Origin: a bacterium
Lineage (GTDB): Bacteria > Actinomycetota > Thermoleophilia > Solirubrobacterales > Solirubrobacteraceae
Direction of reading: 5' to 3'
Assembly (NCBI GenBank): GCA_021323635.1
Contig: JAJPKQ010000041.1
Span: forward strand, 120,253-184,252
DNA length: 64,000 bases
Shown piece by piece: positions 40,286 through 62,162 of the stretch; the first letter of the stretch is position 1, and every line of letters begins with the position of its first letter. The position numbers and the translations under genes were made by a program. The notes beneath the pieces are model-generated. The model did no database searches. It was given only the letters and a program-made list of their open reading frames with translations, and was not told where the DNA came from.

Positions 40286-40314
40286 ATTATACATTTGCTC
40301 GCAGCCGTTGTCAA
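40286..40314 (-). promoter_or_regulatory. Perfect-consensus promoter TTGACA-N17-TATAAT
   Basis: Plus strand attata (40286) and tgtcaa (40309), spacing 17. Confidence 0.8.
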
Positions 40315-59139: not shown

Positions 59140-60207
59140 ATGCCGCAACGCAAGGCAACATCTAAGACCAAGGCCGCGAAACGGCCAGCCACAGTCGCAA
59201 GCAAGGGGTCAAGCGCAAAGGCGGCGCCCGCGCGCCAGCGGTCAAGCAGCCGCGCCGCCGCAGCCGCCTCCTCGCGCTCCTCCGCACGCAGCGGCTCGAG
59301 CGCCCGCACTACCGCCAAGCGCGCCGGCGCATCCACCCGCGCCGCCGGAGCGCGTGCCGGCGCGAAGGCAGGCAGCGCCCGCGCCGGTGGCGCACGCGCA
59401 GGCGCGAGCGCCAAGCCTGCCAGCAGCCGCACCGCGGCAAAGGGCGCCAGCACGGCGCGCAAGAGCGCTGCCAAGGGCAGCGCGCCGGCGCGCAAGGGGG
59501 CAAGCAGCCGCGCCCGGGGGACCGCCAAGGCGGCCGCCGCCCCCGCACGGAGCACGAGCGCGAAGGGCGGCCGCGCAGCCGCCAAGGCGCCCGCCCGCAG
59601 GGCCGCCACAACGCGGCGCAGCGGCCGTCGCGGCGGCCGCCTGCGCGCGGAGATAGAGGCCAACGTCGTCGACTTCGGCGAGCGCCTGCGCGCCTACCGC
59701 AAGCAGGCCGGGCTCTCCCAGCTTGCCCTTGCCGAAGGCGCCGACGTCGATCTCGCTGCGATCTCCTTCCTCGAGCGCGCCAAGCGCGCGCCCAACCTCG
59801 GCACGCTCGTGCGCGTCGCCCGCGCCGTCGGCGTGCCCCCGGCGGTGCTCGCCGACGCGGCGGCCGCCAAGACCTACGGCCTGCCCAAGGTCAGCGACGA
59901 GCCGCTGCCGCGCGGTCGCGCCGGGGCGACGAGGGTGCGTCGGCGCGCGCGCGCCAAGGGCGCAGCGGCGCGGGCGCGCAAGAGCCGCGTCGACGCAACC
60001 CCGCTCAAGCGCTTCGGCGCCAACCTGCGCCGCGCGCGCATCGACGCGGGCCTCTCCCAGGAGCGCCTTGCGGGCTCTGCGGAGCTGGATCGCGCGGCGA
60101 TCTCGATCATCGAGCGCGGCGGGCGCTCCGCCAACCTGCGCACGCTGCTGAAGCTAGCCTGGGCGCTCGAGAAGAGCCCCGCGGAGCTGCTCGAGGGCAT
60201 CGAGTAG
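59140..60207 (+). CDS. Histone-H1-like Ala/Lys/Arg/Ser-rich tail fused to two XRE-type HTH domains
   Basis: ~160 aa low-complexity basic N-term; FGERLRAYRKQAGLSQLALAEGADVDLAAISFLERAKRAPNLGTLVRVARAVGV and FGANLRRARIDAGLSQERLAGSAELDRAAISIIERGGRSANLRTLLKLAWAL. Confidence 0.85.
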   Translation: MPQRKATSKTKAAKRPATVASKGSSAKAAPARQRSSSRAAAAASSRSSARSGSSARTTAKRAGASTRAAGARAGAKAGSARAGGARAGASAKPASSRTAAKGASTARKSAAKGSAPARKGASSRARGTAKAAAAPARSTSAKGGRAAAKAPARRAATTRRSGRRGGRLRAEIEANVVDFGERLRAYRKQAGLSQLALAEGADVDLAAISFLERAKRAPNLGTLVRVARAVGVPPAVLADAAAAKTYGLPKVSDEPLPRGRAGATRVRRRARAKGAAARARKSRVDATPLKRFGANLRRARIDAGLSQERLAGSAELDRAAISIIERGGRSANLRTLLKLAWALEKSPAELLEGIE

Positions 60208-60270: not shown

Positions 60271-60298
60271 GGCGGGACCGCCATTCGGCGGTCCCGCC
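60271..60298. terminator. Bidirectional hairpin between XRE gene and ncRNA-B
   Basis: ggcgggaccgcc-attc-ggcggtcccgcc 12-bp perfect stem. Confidence 0.75.
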
Positions 60299-60475
60299 GC
60301 GCCCTGGTCGCGTCTCCGCACCCGGAGCCCTGCGGGGCCCTCCTCCCTGTCCCTATGTGCCTGTCCACTGCCAGGGGGACGGGCGTTGGGCTCCTCCTGA
60401 GACCTTCCTTGGTAGTGGCGAGGGGAAACCACAGACACCGAAGGCTCTCCGCGCCCGTCCCTCCTGACAGGTGGC
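60271..60475 (-). ncRNA. Candidate structured non-coding RNA B (~205 nt)
   Basis: Promoter at 60482-60510, 18-bp helix between 60368-60385 and 60452-60470, terminal hairpin; no convincing ORF. Confidence 0.55.
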
Positions 60476-60481
60476 AGATCT

Positions 60482-60510
60482 CTTATAGCCGATCCGGCAA
60501 GGCATGTCAA
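60482..60510 (-). promoter_or_regulatory. Promoter TTGACA-N17-TATAAG for ncRNA-B
   Basis: Plus strand cttata (60482) and tgtcaa (60505), spacing 17. Confidence 0.75.
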
Positions 60511-60579
60511 GGCCGGGACACAAATAATTTCCGGCCCCCGCCCGATTCGCGCTCACCCGCCGAGCACAGCAGGCGCACC

Positions 60580-60617
60580 GCGAGTGGAGCCGCCTTCCTC
60601 CTTGCGGCTCCACTCGC
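60580..60617 (-). terminator. Hairpin terminator of ncRNA-A
   Basis: gcgagtggagccgc / gcggctccactcgc 14-bp arms, loop AAGGAGGAAG on minus strand. Confidence 0.65.
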
Positions 60618-60761
60618 ATCCCTCTGGCGCCCCCGCGGGACGTCCTCCCTGGATCTTGCTCCTGCGCGTCCCGGTGGATGCGCAGGACCCTCGTCTCCTG
60701 ATGCCTGAGCGCTGTTGACCGCCCAAAGCCGCACCTCGCAAGCCTCCTGCTTGAAGATGCA
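60580..60761 (-). ncRNA. Candidate structured non-coding RNA A (~180 nt)
   Basis: Promoter at 60768-60796; hairpins CAAGC-AGGAG-GCUUG and CCUGCGC...GCGCAGG; terminal 14-bp hairpin 60580-60617. Confidence 0.55.
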
Positions 60762-60767
60762 CCCACC

Positions 60768-60796
60768 CTTATACATCAATCCGAGGCGCCTGTCAA
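60768..60796 (-). promoter_or_regulatory. Promoter TTGACA-N17-TATAAG for ncRNA-A
   Basis: Plus strand cttata (60768) and tgtcaa (60791), spacing 17. Confidence 0.75.
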
Positions 60797-60833: not shown

Positions 60834-62162
60834 CTAGCGCCCGGCGCTCGGCAGGCCGCCTGTGTAGTAGGCGTAGGTTTCGGCCAGGCCCTCCTCCAGC
60901 CCCACCTTCGGCTCCCAGCCGAAGGCCTCGCGCATGCGCGTGGCATCCAGCGCCGATCGGCGCAGCTCGCCCATGCGCGGGGGCATGTGCTGGGCGGTGA
61001 CGCTGCGCCCGGAGACGCCCTGCAGCAGCTCCCAGAGCCGGTTGACGGAGGTCTGCACGCCCGTGCCGACGTTGTAGACGCCGGGCGAGGGCCGCTCCGC
61101 GGCGGCGACGAACGCCGCAGCAACGTCGCGGACGTGGATGTAGTCGCGCGTCTGCTCGCCGTCGCCGTAGATGCGCGGCGCCTCGCCATTGCGCAGGGCC
61201 TGCGAGAAGATCGCCACCACGCCTGCCTCGCCGTGGGGGTTCTGGCGCGGGCCATAGACGTTGGCCAGACGCAGGACCGTGTTCGGGCACTCGTAGAGGC
61301 GCGCCCAGTGCGTGGTGTAGATCTCGCAGCAGAGCTTGCCGATGCCGTAGGGCGAGAGCGGGTCGGGCGGAAAGTCCTCGTTTGTCGGCAGCGGCGCGTC
61401 TTCGCCGTAGAGGGCGCCGCCGGTGGAGGCAAAGACGAAGCGCGAGTTGCGCGAGCGCGCGCCCTCGAGCACGTTGAAGGTGCCCACGACGTTCGGGAAG
61501 AAGTCCATGAAGGGGCTCTGCACCGAGACGGTGACGCTCGCCTGCGCGGCAAGGTGGAAGACGTAGTCGGGGCAGAAGTGGTAGGCGAGCTGAAAGGCGC
61601 GCACGTCATCGACAAGGTTCATCTTCTCGAACATCGCGCCGTCGGGGACGTTCTCGATCCGCCCGCTGGAGAGGTCGTCGACGACCAGCACGCGATAGCC
61701 GCGCTCGAGCAGCAGCTCCGCGACATGCGAGCCGATGAAGCCCGCGCCGCCCGTCACCAGCGCGCGCTTGCCCGCGATGCGCTCCTCCTCGTCGAGGCGC
61801 AGGTAGGACCACTCCGGCCAGTGGCGGCGCTCGAGCACCAGTTCACGCGCCTCTTCCTCGGTGTAGTAGCCCTCCTTGCAGATCTTTTCGATGAAGGCGT
61901 AGTCGTCGAAGGGCACCCCTTCCTCATCGAGCTCGTCGGGCTCTTCGTTGTAGTAGTCCTCCTCGTCCTCCTCATCCTCCTCGCCGCCGCCGCCGGCCTC
62001 GGCGATCAGCTCTTCGAGCTCTGCGTCGTCGAACGCCGGGGCGCCCTGCGAGCGCTCCACGTCAAACTCGCTTGCGGCGGCGACGCGATCCTCCTCGCTG
62101 CGCTCGCCCCCCTGCCGCTGCGACCACCGGCTCTCCTCATCCCCTGACCGCTCAGCTGTCAT
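60834..62162 (-). CDS. NDP-sugar epimerase/dehydratase (extended SDR) with acidic N-terminal extension
   Basis: RALVTGGAGFIGSHVAELLLERGYRVLVVDDLSSG; SPYGIGKLCCE; N-term GEEDEEDEEDYYNEEPDELDEEG. Confidence 0.85.
   Translation of the reverse strand: MTAERSGDEESRWSQRQGGERSEEDRVAAASEFDVERSQGAPAFDDAELEELIAEAGGGGEEDEEDEEDYYNEEPDELDEEGVPFDDYAFIEKICKEGYYTEEEARELVLERRHWPEWSYLRLDEEERIAGKRALVTGGAGFIGSHVAELLLERGYRVLVVDDLSSGRIENVPDGAMFEKMNLVDDVRAFQLAYHFCPDYVFHLAAQASVTVSVQSPFMDFFPNVVGTFNVLEGARSRNSRFVFASTGGALYGEDAPLPTNEDFPPDPLSPYGIGKLCCEIYTTHWARLYECPNTVLRLANVYGPRQNPHGEAGVVAIFSQALRNGEAPRIYGDGEQTRDYIHVRDVAAAFVAAAERPSPGVYNVGTGVQTSVNRLWELLQGVSGRSVTAQHMPPRMGELRRSALDATRMREAFGWEPKVGLEEGLAETYAYYTGGLPSAGR

Follow-up and report, generated by a model that had tools for sequence, protein, structure and literature searches.

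On the minus strand of the 626 bp spacer that runs from the stop codon of an epimerase gene (60834) to the end of a convergent HTH gene (60207), two tandem units were found by direct reading of the sequence: RNA-A (60580–60761, about 182 nt), followed by RNA-B (60271–60475, about 205 nt). Both are putative non-coding RNAs, and computation shows no coding signature in either. It is proposed that they are a CsrB/CsrC-like pair titrating CsrA in a FliW-bearing bacterium outside the gammaproteobacteria, an interpretation on which our own judgement is evenly divided. Titration of CsrA would be the simplest account of all the facts, because the promoters look strong, the DNA downstream of them is non-coding, AGGA motifs are numerous and in part looped, two such units are present, and the genome encodes CsrA. 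A first-pass annotation of the window (the whole stretch of 64,000 nucleotides that was analysed) had described RNA-A; RNA-B, directly downstream, lay outside its finding.

Promoters and genomic context

The promoter assigned to RNA-A (60768–60796, minus strand) consists of TTGACA (60796–60791), a spacer of 17 nt and TATAAG (60773–60768), and begins 38 bp past the epimerase stop, just where the first-pass annotation had placed it. The same TTGACA-N17-TATAAG arrangement precedes RNA-B (60482–60510, minus strand), 286 bp from the first. A string search for the exact pattern returned two occurrences in the whole 2.64 Mb genome, namely these two, and one in 23 further genomes searched from the genus. 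The AT-rich stretch AAATTATTT (60522–60530, minus strand) lies at about −55 to −47 of RNA-B, a placement that, as read from the sequence, resembles that of an UP element.

Within 1.54 Mb of the genome, 20 promoter sites came close to the consensus; for five of them, including those of RNA-A and RNA-B, non-coding DNA made up 90% or more of the following 200 nt. Among the five, the RNA-A and RNA-B promoters were the only perfect ones, with 6 and 5 downstream AGGA motifs versus 0–1 for the rest; both read into wholly non-coding DNA and had the highest downstream AGGA counts of all 20 sites. By their sequence they appear to be the two strongest-looking promoters of the genome. Across the genus, promoters of the TTGACA/TATAAG class mostly belong to primary-sigma-like, ArsR and transporter genes. 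Most genomes of the genus (e.g., at loci L076, L098 and L199) share the highly conserved promoter TTGACAACGCAACTAT-N7-TATAAT ahead of the primary-sigma-like gene, which also has a conserved leader (CCGACTCCAAGCATCGGATTA). The window has a third perfect promoter, TTGACA-N17-TATAAT (40287–40314, minus strand); some 130 nt downstream of it begins a protein whose first residues resemble a signal peptide.

The upstream neighbour (60834–62162, minus strand) encodes an NAD-dependent epimerase/dehydratase that carries an N-terminal extension, about 130 residues long and acidic, with E/D runs; matches in relatives mostly begin near residue 130 and lack the extension. The downstream, convergent neighbour (59140–60207, plus strand) encodes two HTH_3 domains and an N-terminal tail of 170 residues, rich in Lys, Ala, Ser and Arg, that recalls the tail of histone H1.

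Structure and motif content of RNA-A

The 5′ end of RNA-A was set about 7 nt past the −10 box and its 3′ end at the terminal hairpin. The predicted fold (−96 kcal mol−1, z=−4.85) is unusually stable and contains the three hairpins listed in the first-pass annotation. The first of these, CAAGC-AGGAG-GCUUG (60739–60753, minus strand), presents AGGA in the loop of a 5 bp stem, with the GGA 99% unpaired, and tops a longer outer stem (60761–60730); it is a candidate CsrA site. The second is a 7 bp hairpin with the loop GUCAACAG (60705–60726, minus strand), and the third is the 14 bp terminal hairpin (60580–60617, minus strand), whose loop, AAGGAGGAAG, holds two overlapping and fully unpaired AGGA motifs. 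A further predicted hairpin, UCCUGCGC...GCGCAGGA (60661–60688, minus strand), contains an AGGA that is mostly base-paired. The remaining AGGA motifs were predicted to be about half unpaired in AUCAGGAGAC, between hairpins (60696–60699, minus strand), and partly unpaired in CCAGGGAGGACG (60643–60646, minus strand). Because the 14 bp hairpin has no U-run, it is not a canonical terminator, and the 3′ end was inferred from the hairpin; the terminator of the first-pass annotation thus stands as a hairpin only.

Six AGGA, four AGGAG and ten GGA motifs were counted, slightly more than the roughly five AGGA/AGGAG motifs noted at first. Mononucleotide shuffles gave 1.2–1.3 AGGA (p about 0.001 or less). 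AGGA occurs in two hairpin loops whose stems measure 5 bp or more, as against 0.04 such loops expected, and not one of 1000 dinucleotide shuffles attained two; the accessibility of GGA over RNA-A as a whole was no higher than in shuffles.

Structure and motif content of RNA-B

RNA-B contains five AGGA motifs, including two CAGGAGG, versus about 0.9 expected from shuffles (p about 0.002 or less). In its predicted fold (z=−3.0), a long closing stem joins about 60469–60452 to about 60385–60364, and a 12 bp GC hairpin without a U-run (60271–60298, minus strand) probably marks the end of the RNA. Several GGA motifs were predicted to be unpaired between hairpins. The only hairpin loop with AGGA has a 2 bp stem, below the 5 bp threshold applied to RNA-A, and for that reason the case for RNA-B is weaker. 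Over both RNAs CAGGAG occurs five times, versus 0.21 expected from the intergenic rate of the genome. Paralogy of the two by sequence was considered and rejected, since their local alignment score was not above that of shuffles (p 0.19).

Comparison with the rest of the genome and with E. coli

AGGA motifs were counted in 190 nt non-coding windows on both strands of 1.54 Mb that included the window (58% of the genome), with gene calls from a simple, crude codon model. Among truly non-coding stretches RNA-A ranked first (6) and RNA-B next (5); the other stretches with 5–6 AGGA, when read by eye, had the appearance of missed coding sequence. With one and the same script, AGGA motifs per 100 nt amounted to 3.8 for csrB, 4.1 for csrC, 3.3 for RNA-A, 2.8 for RNA-B and 0 for gcvB.

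RNA-A and RNA-B resemble E. coli CsrB/CsrC in being a pair of small RNAs with repeated CAGGA, in having about 3–4 AGGA per 100 nt, and in the presence of CsrA in the same genome. The AGGAC and AGGAA loops of csrB and csrC sit on stems of 5–6 bp, much as the AGGAG loop of RNA-A sits on 5 bp. The pair differs from CsrB/CsrC (369 and 245 nt) in its shorter RNAs, a GC content of 68–72%, the adjacency of the two units, the lack of covariance-model similarity, and a host that has FliW. In CsrB the element CAGGA(U/A/C)G recurs, and GGA presented by a hairpin loop is recognised by CsrA (PMC7652899); the corresponding motif of RNA-A and RNA-B is CAGGAG, in contrast to the CAGGA(U/A/C)G of CsrB/CsrC. 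CsrA prefers an ANGGAN hexaloop, and SELEX sites favour stems shorter than 14 bp (PMC7652899), whereas the loops of RNA-A comprise 5 and 10 nt and its 14 bp stem exceeds the favoured length.

The RsmX, RsmY and RsmZ RNAs of Pseudomonas, which titrate RsmA/RsmE, comprise about 110–200 nt and several GGA hairpin loops. RNA-A and RNA-B are likewise short and carry GGA motifs, but they have no Rfam match.

CsrA and FliW

The genome encodes two CsrA proteins that score above the Pfam cut-off. One csrA gene is located directly downstream of fliW in a flagellar cluster beside flgL and flgK, and the second is a standalone gene in the neighbourhood of eno and mfd. Residues 1–57 of the standalone protein align with CsrA/RsmE proteins of solved structure, and L4 and R44 (E. 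coli numbering), which contact RNA, are kept. The genome also has a SigH-type sigma gene beside cysS and a gene for a WhiG-type flagellar sigma factor, which may point to an actinobacterial host, perhaps of the Thermoleophilia; in the stretches of the genome that were read, neither a WhiB-like motif nor 16S rRNA was found. CsrA was found in 39 and FliW in 11 of the 41 genomes searched, many of which are incomplete assemblies.

The fliW gene immediately upstream of one csrA recalls the FliW–CsrA partner switch of Bacillus and Campylobacter. That switch, however, uses a protein antagonist, and the standalone csrA is not beside fliW. A review together with a genome survey assigns RNA antagonists of CsrA to the gammaproteobacteria and FliW to other groups (PMC4682653; PMC7652899); FliW is reported to be absent from gammaproteobacteria (PMC7652899), so that the host does not belong to that group. 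According to Zere et al., FliW and the BarA–UvrY system, which drives these RNAs, are almost mutually exclusive, and Actinobacteria, among others, were proposed to be possible users of FliW (PMC4682653). The presence of FliW, the known antagonist of CsrA outside the gammaproteobacteria, counts against a sponge.

The CsrA-like titration suggested in the first-pass annotation gains partial support from the two csrA genes, from the density of AGGA motifs and from the AGGAG loop. If it operates, RNA-A and RNA-B would be strongly transcribed as a tandem pair of structured small RNAs and would sequester CsrA through numerous AGGA (ANGGA) sites, some looped and others in the linkers between hairpins, in the manner of CsrB/CsrC and RsmY/RsmZ in gammaproteobacteria. 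The likely partner would be the standalone CsrA, which is encoded away from FliW. With the RNAs in high abundance, CsrA would leave the ribosome-binding sites of its mRNAs, and any physiological effect may follow from this.

Search for relatives

As the first-pass annotation had supposed for RNA-A, no known RNA family was recognised: the window gave no Rfam match, and between 60150 and 60850 neither CsrB/CsrC, RsmY/RsmZ nor 6S RNA appeared even at E values up to 10. BLAST searches with the spacer against 231 further genomes from the order revealed no relative (E≤1e-4); hits in genomes G021, G028 and G040 had the appearance of chance matches inside other genes. Single-sequence covariance models of RNA-A and RNA-B gave only chance hits in 60 relatives, and on inspection these were overwhelmingly coding sequence. 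No conserved synteny was seen, the flanking genes leading to no syntenic copy in relatives; viral contigs and plasmids gave no match; and about a quarter (800 kb) of the genome of relative G009, surveyed in the same way, contained no comparable unit. Because no relatives were found, neither covariation nor family membership is claimed, and by sequence the pair is an orphan among the genomes searched.

The absence of homologues, although CsrA occurs in almost all of the genomes examined for it, counts against a sponge. Small RNAs of the CsrA-titrating class diverge quickly in sequence, so that missing relatives are not decisive at this distance; they nevertheless lower confidence.

An sRNA-like unit in genomes G007 and G017 was considered as a counterpart and rejected, as it is a multicopy element of G017 (loci L210 and L229–L250, e.g., C3:84519–84813; L096 at G007:C186:4121) that is absent from G000. 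A TTGACA/TATA promoter precedes about 240 nt without an ORF; the element also has the conserved core GGAGAGGGA, a GC hairpin and a (CT)n tail. Rfam yielded no match for it, and the several copies of AGGGA that it contains likewise agree with ANGGA. About six long copies with 81–100% identity, together with many terminal fragments, are present in G017. Riboswitches were located elsewhere in the genome under study, all on the minus strand: c-di-AMP (L123:15000–15146), TPP (L145:19725–19834) and ZTP (L150:19871–19954).

Alternative explanations

RNA-A and RNA-B could be unrelated structured small RNAs, such as base-pairing riboregulators, with RNA-B perhaps a 6S-like, polymerase-binding RNA, and their AGGA motifs could serve another function or none. 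For the pair we rate this as rather improbable, less so for RNA-B. The long stem closing RNA-B from 5′ to 3′ and its more weakly paired central region recall 6S RNA; any small RNA that is abundant typically has a strong promoter, and homologues are missing for many lineage-specific ones. Yet neither 6S nor any other bacterial family was matched in Rfam, even at the permissive E value given above, a clear open central bubble is lacking in RNA-B, and an AGGA enrichment close to the csrB/csrC level in both neighbours would have to be a coincidence.

That the RNAs act as ribosome decoys, with AGGAGG/AAGGAGG loops pairing with the anti-Shine–Dalgarno end of 16S rRNA and so occupying or regulating 30S subunits, appears quite unlikely. 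The AAGGAGGAAG loop of RNA-A and the CAGGAGG strings of both RNAs are near-perfect Shine–Dalgarno strings, whereas AGGGA, CAGGAGA and CAGGAGC are better CsrA cores than Shine–Dalgarno sequences. Decoys of ribosomes and of CsrA predict the same sequence, and because their motifs overlap, sequence does not separate the two; we know of no abundant natural ribosome-decoy RNA of this kind.

We consider it very unlikely that the region is simply a fast-evolving spacer in which the hairpins terminate the epimerase and HTH genes while promoters and motifs arose by chance. The converging genes that end on either side, the strong GC hairpins and the lack of conservation would fit such a spacer, but two perfect promoters, unique in the genome and so close to each other, both lead into AGGA-rich non-coding DNA, neither hairpin has a U-run, and a simple terminator needs no 600 bp. 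Coding of one or more small proteins is extremely unlikely: minus-strand frames of 69–137 codons do cross the spacer, but all frames tested were negative on the codon usage of the genome itself (−0.18 to −0.30 per codon for those crossing RNA-A, versus a gene median of +0.20), and the RNA-crossing frames lack the high third-position GC typical of genes.

Implications

All CsrA-decoy RNAs known to date come from another bacterial group, and they are regarded as gammaproteobacterial; the open-access literature that was searched described none in the present lineage. Under the CsrA-titration proposal, the twin small RNAs would control the standalone CsrA and would have arisen independently of the gammaproteobacterial RNAs, and a single cell would oppose its two CsrA proteins both with FliW and with RNA; this extended claim is a tentative one, towards which we lean slightly less than away from it. 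Most genomes of the lineage have CsrA, many of them without detectable FliW, and the pair, if it functions as proposed, would explain the control of CsrA for one species. It would then also follow that the strategy of antagonising CsrA with RNA has evolved more than once.
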